64,000 bases of DNA from positions 1 to 64,000 of the forward strand of contig NZ_FOOH01000014.1 of NCBI RefSeq assembly GCF_900113135.1. Reading direction: 5' to 3'. The translations under genes and the position numbers were made by a program. Origin of the DNA: Salegentibacter agarivorans (GTDB lineage: Bacteria > Bacteroidota > Bacteroidia > Flavobacteriales > Flavobacteriaceae). This document shows positions 4,712 to 16,855 of this stretch, in pieces (position 1 is the stretch's first letter; every line of letters starts with the position of its first letter). The notes beneath the pieces were generated by a model, which was given only the letters and a program-made list of their open reading frames with translations, had not been told where the DNA came from and searched no databases.

Positions 4712-4880
4712 TAAAAAAAGCCTGTATTAGATAGGTTTTTGGATTAAACTCCTTAAAAACAAGTTTAGGGCTAACAAGCTGATCAAGAATCCGCTCTAAG
4801 GCGGCGCGCTTTTACAACTTAGACTCACCCTCTTTAAAGAATCTCTGTTGAGTTTATCAAAATATCACTAATACAGGCAG
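4712..4880 (-). ncRNA. ssrS: 6S-like RNA (ssrS)
   Basis: Between zapA and rny, the minus strand encodes an RNA of about 165 nt whose ends pair perfectly over 11 bp: GCCTGTATTAG (4878-4868) with CTAATACAGGC (4730-4720). The 3' arm is followed directly by seven T residues, a closing-stem terminator. A long, mostly self-pairing rod with an interrupted middle fits 6S RNA, which sequesters the RNA polymerase holoenzyme. The location beside zapA matches the known zapA-ssrS linkage and my recollection of flavobacterial 6S placement. No clear TAnnTTTG promoter is visible, so it may be processed from the zapA transcript. A covariance-model match was not run. Confidence 0.72.
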
Positions 4881-12635: not shown

Positions 12636-14465
12636 ATGACCTATTTAAAGAAGATTCTTCAGTTTGCAAGACCCTACAAGCGTTTTGCGATACTTAACAT
12701 TATAAGTAATATTTTTTACGCACTTTTTAGCACCCTGGCGTTTATTTCTTTTATTCCCATGTTGCGGGTGCTTTTTCAGGAAGAAGAGCCAATTAGCAGC
12801 AGGCCGGTATGGAATGGCGAGTTTAGTGGCCTAAAAGATTTTGCTAACGATTATTCTAATTTTTTCCTGAATCAACAGGTAGAAGCTCACGGCCAAATTG
12901 CTGCTTTGGTAAGTATTTGTATTACAGTAATTGTGCTTTTCTTTTTAAAGAACTTTTTTAATTACCTGGCTTTATATTTTATTGCCAACCTTAGAAACGG
13001 GATGCTTAAAGATATAAGGAACCGTATATACGATAAAATTGTAGAATTACCGGTTTCCTTCTTTTCTGAAAAACGAAAAGGAGATTTTATTTCCAGGATT
13101 ACCAGTGATGTTCAGGAAATTCAGACTTCATTCTTAAGTATGCTGGAGCTTTTTGTTAAAGAACCGCTTACTTTGATTTTTACCCTGGTAGCAATGATCG
13201 CGCTTAGCCCGAAATTGACGCTCTTTGTGTTGGTATTTTTACCACTTTCAGGTTTATTGATTTCTTCTATTGGAAAGAAATTAAAATCTCAATCTACACA
13301 GGCACAACAGGAAAATGCAAACTTTCTAACCATTGTAGAGGAGTCACTTTCAAGCTTAAAAATCATTAAAGGTTTTAATGCTGAAGATAAATTTAAAAAG
13401 AAATTTTATGACAGCACCGGCCGATTAAACCGAATTTTAAATACGCTTTTACACCGCCAGAACCTCGCCTCACCTATGAGTGAGTTTCTGGGTGTGGTGG
13501 TAATCACGATAATTTTATGGTTTGGGGGAAGAATGGTGTTGATTGATAATACTATGGACGCCTCAACTTTTATAGGATTTCTGGTATTAACGTATAATAT
13601 TCTAACGCCCGCAAAAGCAATTTCAAAAGCTACTTACTCTATTCAAAAAGGAAATGCCAGTGCCGAACGAATTTTAGAAATCCTGGAAACCGAATCAACA
13701 ATAAAGGATGATAAAAATGCCATAAAGAAAGAGAGTTTTGAAAACAGCATTAAAGTAGATAATATCAATTTTAGGTACGAAAAAGAAAACGTACTTAAGA
13801 ATTTTTCTATGCAGGTGGAAAAAGGGAAAATGGTTGCTCTGGTAGGTCAATCTGGTAGTGGGAAATCCACCATCGCAAACTTAATAACCCGTTTTTACGA
13901 CGTTAACGAAGGTGATATTAAACTAGATGGGCATAACATTAAAGGAATTACCAAAAAATCGCTGAGAAACTTAATGGGACTTGTTACCCAGGATTCTATA
14001 CTCTTTAATGATACGGTTAAAAATAATATTGGATTAGGGAAAGACAATGCTACCGAAGAGGAAATTATTGAAGCCTTAAAAGTTGCCAATGCCTGGGAGT
14101 TTGTAAAGGATCTTCCCAAAGGCCTGGAAACAAATATTGGCGATAGTGGCAATAAATTAAGTGGCGGTCAAAAACAAAGGCTTTCAATTGCCCGGGCTGT
14201 ACTTAAAAATCCACCAATTATGATTCTTGATGAAGCTACCTCTGCCCTGGATACCGAAAGCGAAAAGCTGGTGCAAAAAGCCCTGGAAAATATGATGAAA
14301 AACAGAACTTCTATAGTTATCGCCCATAGACTTTCCACCATACAAAACGCAGATAAGATTATTGTACTACACCGGGGCGAAATTGTAGAGCAGGGCAAAC
14401 ACCTGGAATTACTCGCCCAAAAAGGTACCTATCAAAAGTTAGTAGAAATGCAATCTTTTGATTAA
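12636..14465 (+). CDS. MsbA-like ABC exporter (fused permease and ATPase)
   Basis: A 609-residue half-transporter. The N-terminal exporter-type membrane domain has six helices (residues about 15-340), including FLKNFFNYLALYFIANLRNG and the ELPVSFFSEKRKGDFISRI coupling region. In the ATPase domain, Walker A GQSGSGKST is near 404, the signature is LSGGQKQRLSIARA, Walker B is IMILDEATSALD and the H-loop IVIAHRLST. It should work as a homodimer flipping a lipid or glycolipid. It lies 12 nt after the mutase gene and ends the cluster at a strong hairpin. MsbA-type lipid A transport is plausible, but other lipids are equally possible. Confidence 0.9.
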   Translation: MTYLKKILQFARPYKRFAILNIISNIFYALFSTLAFISFIPMLRVLFQEEEPISSRPVWNGEFSGLKDFANDYSNFFLNQQVEAHGQIAALVSICITVIVLFFLKNFFNYLALYFIANLRNGMLKDIRNRIYDKIVELPVSFFSEKRKGDFISRITSDVQEIQTSFLSMLELFVKEPLTLIFTLVAMIALSPKLTLFVLVFLPLSGLLISSIGKKLKSQSTQAQQENANFLTIVEESLSSLKIIKGFNAEDKFKKKFYDSTGRLNRILNTLLHRQNLASPMSEFLGVVVITIILWFGGRMVLIDNTMDASTFIGFLVLTYNILTPAKAISKATYSIQKGNASAERILEILETESTIKDDKNAIKKESFENSIKVDNINFRYEKENVLKNFSMQVEKGKMVALVGQSGSGKSTIANLITRFYDVNEGDIKLDGHNIKGITKKSLRNLMGLVTQDSILFNDTVKNNIGLGKDNATEEEIIEALKVANAWEFVKDLPKGLETNIGDSGNKLSGGQKQRLSIARAVLKNPPIMILDEATSALDTESEKLVQKALENMMKNRTSIVIAHRLSTIQNADKIIVLHRGEIVEQGKHLELLAQKGTYQKLVEMQSFD

Positions 14466-14528: not shown

Positions 14529-14882
14529 TTATAAAATCAACTCTCCATTTTCCAGAGCTTCATCTATATTAGCGCTAATCGTAGTATGGGTTCTAAAGAA
14601 TTTTCTTCCATCTTCTCTTTTCAATTTAACAGTAGTTTCACCTGCATCATTTGTTTCTACTGCAGTTACTTCTACTCTATTCCCATTCAGGCTCTTATAG
14701 TTTGCAATTCCACCTTTTTTAATTATGAAATTAGCTTTAGGTAAATCTAAAGATTTAAAATTTTGATTTTCAGTTTGATTAATCACTAATACATCTCCTA
14801 CCGTTACCGGTTCAGTTTGGTTTTGTGCCTCTACTTGAAAAGCAAATAATAGCATAATCGGAATTATAAGTAAATTTCTCAT
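14529..14882 (-). CDS. Small secreted protein of unknown function
   Basis: A 117-residue protein with a clear signal peptide (MRNLLIIPIMLLFAFQVEAQ). The mature part is beta-rich and polar: TVGDVLVINQTENQNFKSLD, KGGIANYKSLNGNRVEVTAV and VKLKREDGRKFFRTHTTIS. There are no cysteines or known catalytic motifs in it, and I do not recognise the family. The spaced short strands suggest a small periplasmic or outer-surface beta domain. It is a single-gene unit, convergent with the ABC exporter and downstream of the candidate RNA on the same strand. The start is set by the signal peptide. Confidence 0.65.
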   Translation of the reverse strand: MRNLLIIPIMLLFAFQVEAQNQTEPVTVGDVLVINQTENQNFKSLDLPKANFIIKKGGIANYKSLNGNRVEVTAVETNDAGETTVKLKREDGRKFFRTHTTISANIDEALENGELIL

Positions 14883-14981: not shown

Positions 14982-15103
14982 AAAAAAAGGACGAAGTAAA
15001 CTTCATCCTTTTTTAAAAATTATTCTCATTGTGGGGCAACTAAGAATAATAGATTTAATTCGTTTTCAATTGGGGCAAAAAAGATTAAATCATTTTTGAT
15101 ACT
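14982..15103 (-). ncRNA. Candidate small RNA with two C-rich hairpin loops and a terminator
   Basis: On the minus strand a promoter (see 15105-15140) precedes about 120 nt with no useful reading frame. Hairpin 1 (15091-15052) has the stem GATTTAAT/ATTAAATC and an inner TTTT/AAAA pairing that exposes GCCCCAATTG. Hairpin 2 (15050-15019) has the stem ATTATTCTTA/TGAGAATAAT with an inner TTG/CAA pairing that exposes CCCCA. A Rho-independent terminator (15014-14982, AAGGATGAAG with CTTCGTCCTT, then seven T) follows. Both loops carry TTGCCCCA. This is the layout of a regulatory RNA with a repeated binding loop. It may belong to a catalogued Bacteroidota motif such as Flavo-1, which I could not check. 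Confidence 0.62.
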
Positions 15104-15104
15104 G

Positions 15105-15140
15105 TAAATATAGATTAGAGAAATCAAATCACCAAACAAA
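15105..15140 (-). promoter_or_regulatory. Promoter of the candidate small RNA
   Basis: Minus-strand TTTG (15136-15133), a 20-nt spacer, then TATATTTA (15112-15105), one mismatch from TAnnTTTG. Initiation is predicted near 15100. No protein-coding gene starts within 200 nt downstream, which leaves the hairpin RNA as its product. Confidence 0.55.
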
Positions 15141-15232
15141 AAGTGCATTTTAACTGATTTTTATGCATTTTGTCGATTATATAAAGATTTGGCTTACGCG
15201 AAAATTAGGATCGAATTCTTTTACTCGCTGAC

Positions 15233-15286: not shown

Positions 15287-15856
15287 ATGAAAATTAAGAC
15301 AAGTATCCCTTTGAAAACGTCCGAAGATCTACTTATTAAACGCTTACAGGATAAAAAGACTTCTTCTGAAGCTTTTAAGGAATTGGTATCTTTATATAAG
15401 GAGCGTTTATACTGGCACATTCGTAACATGGTGAAAGACCATGAGGATGCGCATGATGTGCTTCAGAATACTTTTATCAAAATTTTTAGAAATATCAATA
15501 ATTTTAAAGGAGAAAGTAAATTATTTTCCTGGATGTATCGCATAGCCACCAACGAATCTATAAGTTTTTTAAATAAACGCGCTAAATGCAATCACATCAC
15601 TTCAGAAGATTTACAGCAACAACTAATTTCCAATTTAGAAAGCGATGTTTATTTTGAAGGAGATGAAATTCAATTAAAGTTGCAAAAAGCAATTGCCAGT
15701 CTGCCAGCTAAACAACAACAGGTTTTTAATATGAAATATTTTGAAGAATTAAAATACCGGGAAATGGCAGAAATACTTGAAACCAGTGAGGGAGCGCTAA
15801 AGGCATCATACCACCACGCGGCTAAAAAAATTGAGGAATACTTAAAAACCAATTAA
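15287..15856 (+). CDS. ECF-type sigma-70 family RNA polymerase sigma factor
   Basis: A 189-residue alternative sigma factor. Region 2 spans about 30-98 (YKERLYWHIRNMVKDHEDAH, DVLQNTFIKIFRNI, SWMYRIATNESISFLNKR), contacting core and the -10 DNA. Region 4 spans about 132-185 (LPAKQQQVFNMKYFEELKYR, then EMAEILETSEGALKASYHHA), a helix-turn-helix for the -35. There is no region 1.1 or 3, as expected for the ECF group. It is followed at 32 nt by an anti-sigma-like membrane protein and then a Spy-like exported protein, a typical three-gene envelope-sensing module. Confidence 0.92.
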   Translation: MKIKTSIPLKTSEDLLIKRLQDKKTSSEAFKELVSLYKERLYWHIRNMVKDHEDAHDVLQNTFIKIFRNINNFKGESKLFSWMYRIATNESISFLNKRAKCNHITSEDLQQQLISNLESDVYFEGDEIQLKLQKAIASLPAKQQQVFNMKYFEELKYREMAEILETSEGALKASYHHAAKKIEEYLKTN

Positions 15857-16411: not shown

Positions 16412-16855
16412 ATGAAAAACCTACTTATAATATTATTAATGTTTTCTGGATTGTGGGAAATGCAGTCCCAAAACAGAAGTGAATCTCATAGAGAGAAAAT
16501 AAAGGAATTAAAAACTGCTTTTTTTACCCAGGAGTTAAACCTGGATAAACAAAAAGCTCAAAAATTTTGGCCAATTTATAATGAATATGAGTCTGAATTG
16601 CACGAATTGAGAAAACGAGAGCATAGAGATTTGCCTAATTTAGAATGTATTTCTGAAGATGAGGCCGAGGAAATGCTAAAAGAATACGTCATTATAGAAA
16701 GGCAGGATTATGTTCTTAAAGAGAAACTTTTCAAGGATTTGAAAGAAATAATGTCTTCTCAGGAAATTATTAAACTTCATAAATTGGAAGACGAATTTCA
16801 TAAAAAATTGATTAAAGAATACCGATCTAGAAAAGATCGCGAAAATCAGGAATAA
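16412..16855 (+). CDS. Spy/CpxP-like exported protein (sensor of ECF-type sigma factor)
   Basis: A 147-residue exported helical protein. The signal peptide is MKNLLIILLMFSGLWEMQSQ. The mature part is nearly all charged helix: FFTQELNLDKQKAQKFWPIY, NEYESELHELRKREHRD, VLKEKLFKDLKEIMSSQEII. The L-x-x-x-Q-A-x-K-F-W-P-I-Y pattern marks Bacteroidota proteins often labelled sensor of ECF-type sigma factor, related to Spy/CpxP periplasmic chaperones. An ATG at 16400 overlaps the preceding gene, but the ATG at 16412, one base past its TAA, starts the signal peptide correctly. It probably reports envelope state to the upstream pair; that is inference from context. Confidence 0.8.
   Translation: MKNLLIILLMFSGLWEMQSQNRSESHREKIKELKTAFFTQELNLDKQKAQKFWPIYNEYESELHELRKREHRDLPNLECISEDEAEEMLKEYVIIERQDYVLKEKLFKDLKEIMSSQEIIKLHKLEDEFHKKLIKEYRSRKDRENQE

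Follow-up and report, generated by a model that had tools for sequence, protein, structure and literature searches.

A conserved, probable small RNA gene of marine flavobacteria with complementarity to a second, widespread small RNA

The 64,000 nucleotides of Salegentibacter agarivorans DNA analyzed here (the window) include a 404-base gap that separates open reading frames (ORFs) at 14529-14882 (minus strand) and 15287-15856 (plus strand). The latter is an ECF sigma factor gene by its Pfam domains (Sigma70_r2 and r4_2) and by synteny, and it is the divergent neighbor conserved with the element in the gap; the other conserved flank is an ABC transporter gene (12636..14465, plus strand). Read along its minus strand, the gap contains first a tandem repeat, then the arrangement TTTG-N20-TATATTTA, two hairpins with TTGCCCCA loops and finally a terminator. 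A preliminary description had reported the promoter, both hairpins and the Rho-independent terminator on this strand, and all are present. The promoter is of the Bacteroidota type, with a −7 element TATATTTA (15105..15112, minus strand) whose position is conserved and, 20 bases before it, a conserved −33 element TTTG (15133..15136, minus strand). With the start placed according to the −7 box, the predicted transcript, which we call A, is about 118 nt long (14982..15099, minus strand), in keeping with its fold and with a covariance model match at 14982-15097. The extent given earlier, 14982-15140, does contain this RNA, and its upper end takes in the promoter.

Hairpin 1 of A (15052..15091, minus strand) bears the 13-nt word TTTTTTGCCCCAA (15070..15082, minus strand), which is complementary to the linker of a second small RNA (sRNA), B, described below. 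Hairpin 2 (15020..15049, minus strand) presents a second copy of the B-complementary word in its TTGCCCCA loop and is followed by the intrinsic terminator (14982..15014, minus strand), in which 3 of the 14 aligned pairs have changes on both sides. Beyond the promoter lie the two direct repeats of a putative activator site, the proximal GTTAAAATGCA (15144..15154, minus strand) and the distal GACAAAATGCA (15164..15174, minus strand), 20 bases apart. A 201-nt stretch containing A folds better than 200 of 200 dinucleotide shuffles (z −3.17). The count of TTGCCCCA in the 64 kb is unremarkable (2 matches against 2.44 expected), and the distinctive feature of A is not the word itself but the placement of both copies in adjacent hairpin loops.

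A search of 60 relatives detected A in 14 of 15 Salegentibacter genomes, including that of the window (E 8.6e-77 to 5e-14), and matches outside the genus were short and weak (E 4.4e-4 or worse). A covariance model built from the 14 genus sequences (R1) scores at least 84 bits in the same 14 genomes, an agreement that follows from its construction; in the fifteenth genome, which is 61% complete (G007), a match of 34.7 bits was judged false and dropped. Across the 38 named pairs of the genus alignment, 96.2% of cells are paired, compared to 51-63% in slid controls, and nine pairs have changes on both sides, compared to a mean of 2.6 in shuffled alignments, none of 500 of which reaches nine. The GCCCC of loop 2 is invariant in all 14 sequences; that of loop 1 is broken in two, by a substitution in L006 (GCCTC) and by loss of the word in L014. 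The preliminary description had proposed an sRNA gene with its own promoter and terminator, had judged the arrangement hard to explain by chance and had named covarying stems with conserved CCCC loops as the support to look for. Each of these points is borne out, by elements that are kept among relatives, by conservation in 14 of 15 genomes, by stems that covary and by the fold.

Outside the genus, R1 returned 22 matches at E ≤ 0.001 in 397 genomes of the family, 3 from Salegentibacter and 19 from elsewhere. Twelve of these 19 adjoin an orthologue of the window's ECF sigma factor gene; the other seven (L041, L046, L047, L048, L049, L051 and L052) do not and were dropped as probable terminator matches, L046 being a B locus. 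Among the 25 loci with the ECF orthologue (13 from the genus and 12 others), the ABC transporter gene lies within the 3-kb stretch in 24. The syntenic gaps revealed a second, commoner form of A, composed of a single-stranded AACCTACTTA, one hairpin with the loop CCCCAA(A/G)TCT and a terminator whose loop often repeats CCCAAAT. The form found in Salegentibacter and Christiangramia instead has the linker-complementary word doubled in two hairpins (U5-7GCCCCAA). We aligned 35 sequences of the commoner form (37 were extracted, of which L102 and L111 repeat L083 and L075 and were omitted). Changes on both sides occur in 12 of 21 pairs, a number reached by 0 of 500 shuffles, and in 44 cells, compared to 7.4 in shuffles (0 of 500); the count of further pair types was reached by 2 of 500.

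A model built from the commoner form only, without any genus sequence (R2), matched 127 of 395 Flavobacteriaceae genomes at E ≤ 0.001 and 112 at E ≤ 1e-4 (hereafter strong matches), under strict filters that missed the window's own genome. Run on the loci themselves, R2 had its best match at A in 14 of 14 genus loci (33.0-52.1 bits; 41.3 in the window), weaker matches on the opposite strand being the terminator. This reciprocity, in which R2 finds A in the genus and R1 finds A in other genera, supports a single conserved structured RNA. In all 88 strong-match genomes that had an ECF gene among the matches listed, A lies upstream of that gene in divergent orientation, at no more than 2 kb; the median distance is 188 bases, and in 81 of these genomes it is within 400. 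Half of 80 named loci have an R1 or R2 match upstream of the ECF gene at E ≤ 1e-3, although many of these 40 had served to build R2; a cruder motif scan of the gaps gave 54 of 80, a figure that takes in matches within the ABC gene and that we set aside. Genera with matches include Christiangramia, Salinimicrobium, Gillisia, Winogradskyella, Algibacter, Mangrovimonas and Flaviramulus. Four Flavobacterium loci gave no match by R1 or R2 at E ≤ 0.5, and three Polaribacter loci and one Tenacibaculum locus gave no model match upstream of the ECF gene. The element is intergenic and has a predicted promoter of its own, its own intrinsic terminator and compensatory structural change, as is expected of an independent bacterial sRNA gene. 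Judged from these sequences, it is very probably a real sRNA gene kept at the same place in many marine flavobacteria.

Two side observations concern related gaps. The ECF gaps of Aquimarina and uncultured Aquimarina (L093, L095, L107, L117, L120 and L136) contain an RNA-like element of another kind, in which one hairpin bears CCCCAAG and a second, conserved one bears GCCCC. This element may be a third form of A; recognized by eye, it is hardly scored by the models (R1 E 0.027 at best). On the minus strand of L164:2484-2575, the terminator loop bears TTCCCCAA, so that a second CCCC loop is reached another way.

The tandem repeats upstream of the promoter are also conserved. A pair of repeats of the form GATNAARTGYA occurs upstream of A with at most 4 mismatches in 22 positions in 48 of 49 loci and in 2% of 980 mononucleotide-shuffled controls; since the consensus derives from the very sequences counted, this figure is not independent, but the spacing is, and the period is 20 or 21 in all 49 best pairs, with 18-25 allowed. 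In operators of the LytTR type, a promoter is preceded by a pair of direct repeats at a spacing of about two turns of the helix. The repeats upstream of A have this spacing, and we take them to resemble the LytTR operator consensus as well. At up to 3 mismatches, the window's repeat is one of two such sites in its genome (controls, 0).

The preliminary description had noted that the C-rich loop would be complementary to GGGGCAA sites, and a putative partner containing GGGGCAA, by far the best match that we found, does lie outside the window, in another conserved sRNA (B). We found B by searching the window's genome for TTGGGGCAA, so that nine complementary letters are built into the comparison. 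Two of the 30 sites read are neighboring intergenic copies of the form ...AACATAAGTAGGTTAAGTTCATGGTAGATTTGGGGCAAA(A/G)AAAGG followed by a terminator (G000:C29:137643-137723 and 137889-137968, at L204; further B loci are L192 and L046), located between a gene with a GATase_7 Pfam domain, which we take to be purF-like, and an Fe/Mn superoxide dismutase (sod) gene. B comprises a 5′ hairpin whose upper part bears AUAAGUAGGUUAA, a linker UAGAUUUGGGGCAAAAA and a terminator (z −3.40 and −3.75). Its invariant words, AUAAGUAGGUUAAG and UAGAUUUGGGGCAAAAA, are both complementary to conserved words of A. The GGGG linker is open in the folds of the A-B cofold series, but in a second fold that includes a few extra 5′ bases part of it pairs with these bases. 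We also considered a small ORF in B (ATGGTAGATTTGGGGCAA...), but on visual comparison the copies differ in frame downstream of the A run, which does not support a gene.

B is widespread, with matches in 314 of 393 Flavobacteriaceae genomes at E ≤ 0.001 (279 of the 326 good ones), many of them 98% identical over about 53 bases. The search scored only a few stretches in each genome and therefore gives minimum copy numbers; some genomes have at least five matches, and 23 of 30 fetched loci have two or more copies (60 copies in all). A sod or purF-like gene lies within 1.5 kb of B in all 30 loci (sod in 25, purF-like in 27). An order-level sample of 163 genomes gave 22 matches at E ≤ 1e-5, of which two lie outside the family and are short (35 and 37 bases); the other 20 are within it. 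Upstream of B, the matrix derived from the A repeats scores a mean of 6.6 on the opposite strand, compared to −3.7 (sd 4.3) in controls, with 25 of 60 copies above the 99th percentile of controls; this reversed, diverged motif lies mostly about 50 or 70 bases before the B core. On the same strand there was little signal (−2.8 vs −4.6), and when the window's genome was scanned with the repeat pattern, the sites upstream of B were not among the matches.

In 25 of 25 cognate pairs, each taken with its first B copy, the longest complementary run between A and B is 8-16 nt. To score these helices, we computed stacking energies with the B core fixed and the A terminator removed, using 1,000 shuffles per A sequence. 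The best A helix with the B core was reached by at most 5 of 1,000 shuffles in 42 of 49 A sequences; the other seven (L014, L039, L072, L101, L105, L115 and L124) were indistinct from shuffles. This test replaced an earlier one based on two runs, which failed for the genus (more than 5 of 200 shuffles reached the sum in 11 of 14 sequences) because of poly-A/T runs. For the window, the helix TTTTTGCCCCAA (−22.1 kcal/mol stacking) is equaled by none of 6,378 80-nt segments of the 64 kb (both strands, step 20), and cofolding A with the two B copies gains 10.4 and 11.7 kcal/mol over the separate folds. In the commoner form, the single-stranded (C)UUAACCUACUUAU(GUU), or part of it, fits the top of the B hairpin, and the loop CCCCAAAUCU fits the B linker. 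Different genera match different stretches of one invariant B segment, CTTAACCTA(CT) in the Winogradskyella form and AACCTACTTATGTT in the Algibacter form. Independent of the TTGGGGCAA search are the rest of the helix, the lineage-specific extensions and the whole ACCTACTT word, which is absent from 12 of 14 genus sequences, including that of the window. As read from the alignments, the parts of A that resist change are largely those complementary to B.

The distribution of the two RNAs agrees with this complementarity. All 112 genomes with a strong A match are in the B list (G029 only at B E 3.6e-4), as are 13 of 15 with a weak match, some of which may be false; these co-occurrences are confounded by ancestry. 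Conversely, 202 genomes have B without a strong R2 match, and at least six of them (G000, G003, G021, G277, G301 and G344) have A by R1. Because the rest of these perhaps lack A, A does not appear to be needed for B. One genome with A by R1, G428, is absent from the B list and possibly lies outside the 393 genomes.

Given the conservation, structure, synteny and complementarity of A and B and their related promoter motifs, we propose that A is a stand-alone sRNA gene whose product probably binds and titrates B as a decoy or sponge. An activator would bind the tandem repeats and cause A to be made. The single strand of A would then pair with the top of the B hairpin and the hairpin loop of A with the B linker, and this pairing would remove B from its mRNA targets. 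Two features expected of a sponge are found in the sequences: A is complementary to predicted exposed or conserved regions of an sRNA of the same genome, and strong A matches occur only where B occurs (112 of 112). We infer the transcription of the two RNAs, their pairing and the direction of control, A over B, from these patterns, as we do the regulator and the target.

If A mimics the targets of B, those targets should contain A's words. The word AACCTACTTA is not enriched in the window's genome (12 sites, two of them within B itself, compared to 17 for the control), but one of these sites falls across the start codon of a gene for wzi-type capsule assembly (PF14052), where AACCTACTTATG spans L258:1501-1512. 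CCTACTTATG covers this codon in 10 of the 13 genus orthologues (L273-L285); of the others, L274 carries a single change, and L284 and L285 differ. It is absent from the one orthologue of another genus (L286) and from 12 of 12 paralogue leaders read (four further rows, L287 and L300-L302, were left out). The wzi leaders are conserved in general, and the duplex energies of orthologues (−16.8 to −25.2) and paralogues (−12.0 to −22.4) overlap, so we regard wzi as a candidate B target in the sense of a lead only. Targets of B would probably carry CCUACUUA at the start codon, as in wzi. Within the window, the third ECF-operon gene has AACCTACTTA at its codons 3-5 (16418..16427, plus strand), a possible but weak B site that is exact in 4 of 13 relatives read (L002, L003, L005 and L006).

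A broader and more tentative picture is that of a two-RNA switch, which we consider possible but doubtful in its full extent. In such a switch, the mostly multi-copy, tandem B would act at the start codons of surface-polysaccharide genes, wzi among them, to block their translation, and the co-regulated decoy A would mimic these targets and bind B by reciprocal contacts, with the same class of tandem-repeat-binding regulator driving both.

The complementarity of A and B is symmetric, and an opposite assignment of roles must be weighed, in which A, as an ordinary sRNA, uses its C-rich loops to repress mRNAs in trans and is itself controlled by B, one sponge or target of several. Repeated exposed loops suit an sRNA with several targets, as the preliminary description had suggested, and B resembles a titrator in being more widespread than A (314 of 393 genomes vs 112 of 395) and mostly multi-copy (23 of 30 loci). 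However, the TTGGGGCAA sites that A would recognize are not enriched in the window's genome (39 vs 34 for the reversed control), and 22 of the 30 read lie inside ORFs of at least 80 codons; L184, 38 bases before an ORF start, is the only one of these 30 just upstream of an ORF without lying inside one. The suggestion that A pairs with several mRNAs through this word therefore finds no support in these counts, and a device directed against A would be odd in the many B genomes in which no A was found. We consider this reading unlikely. Three of the 30 sites, read as the B-target word TTGCCCCAA, passed our filter (L177, L183 and L199); the closest of them, L183, is a palindromic leader that precedes by 19 bases the ATG of what is presumably a uridine kinase gene. 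As a separate observation, the palindrome at L183/L184 (about 1475-1545), AATTTGGGGCAAATGTTTAAATTTGCCCCAAATT, just upstream of this presumed uridine kinase gene, holds both an A-type and a B-type word.

A could also be a decoy, like CsrB in principle, for a protein that recognizes repeated CCCC hairpin loops; CsrB and RsmZ carry many GGA loops that are bound by CsrA. The CCCC loops of A do sit on covarying stems, and several lineages have CCC(C) loops in two copies, but the loops are UUGCCCCA and only two in number. Moreover, the conserved letters of A reach beyond CCCC, much as the complementarity to B does, include a single-stranded word without CCCC and vary by genus in line with B, which makes a protein decoy improbable. 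Local action of A on the neighboring ECF sigma factor gene or operon rather than in trans would fit the strict ECF synteny (88 of 88 among the matches listed) and the AACCTACTTA word near the start codon of the third operon gene, but it is very improbable, given that A is divergent from the ECF gene without overlap and at a distance that varies up to 2 kb, and that the operon word is a B site rather than an A site and is exact in few of the relatives read.

To our knowledge, few regulatory sRNAs of known mechanism have been described in Bacteroidota. The preliminary description had allowed for a known Bacteroidota RNA family, yet a covariance search of Rfam 15 gave no family at gathering score for A, the best sub-threshold match by E-value being STnc430 (27.7 bits vs 47). 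Eighteen matches at a relaxed E-value were rejected, all far below gathering score, and the three that were aligned pair mainly in the terminator. B likewise has no match in Rfam, and our searches of the open-licence literature brought up none that we recognized as an account of A or B. The two RNAs thus form families without an Rfam entry, of which B occurs in most of the Flavobacteriaceae genomes searched, and they come with a letter-level prediction of pairing partners and a candidate target. If the sponge reading is true, it would describe a circuit kept across much of one bacterial family.

Known bacterial sponges include SroC, RbsZ and the spacer of chbBC, which traps ChiX; in Enterobacteria they work together with Hfq, and several originate as fragments of mRNAs. 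A is predicted to resemble them as an RNA with a target-like complement of an sRNA that it titrates. It differs in that it is encoded by a gene of its own, which has a promoter, repeats upstream of it and a syntenic position in much of the family, and in that its words are complementary to two distinct regions of an sRNA that is mostly multi-copy. In staphylococci, sRNAs with UCCC loops likewise expose C-rich hairpin loops as pairing seeds; these bind G-rich Shine-Dalgarno sequences, whereas the best GGGG partner found for A lies in another sRNA. The nearest flavobacterial RNA that we have seen described is Rfp18 of Flavobacterium psychrophilum, which is reported to pair with metalloprotease mRNAs through its third stem-loop (PMC9723704). 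By description only, the Rfp RNAs resemble A as intergenic, structured Flavobacteriaceae sRNAs with proposed trans pairing (PMC9723704), although the A model has no match in the four Flavobacterium loci; B could be one of the Rfp RNAs. A carries no match at gathering score to the 6S-Flavo model (RF01685), whose RNA is encoded at a different place in the same organism, on the minus strand of the window at 4746-4853 (104.1 bits).
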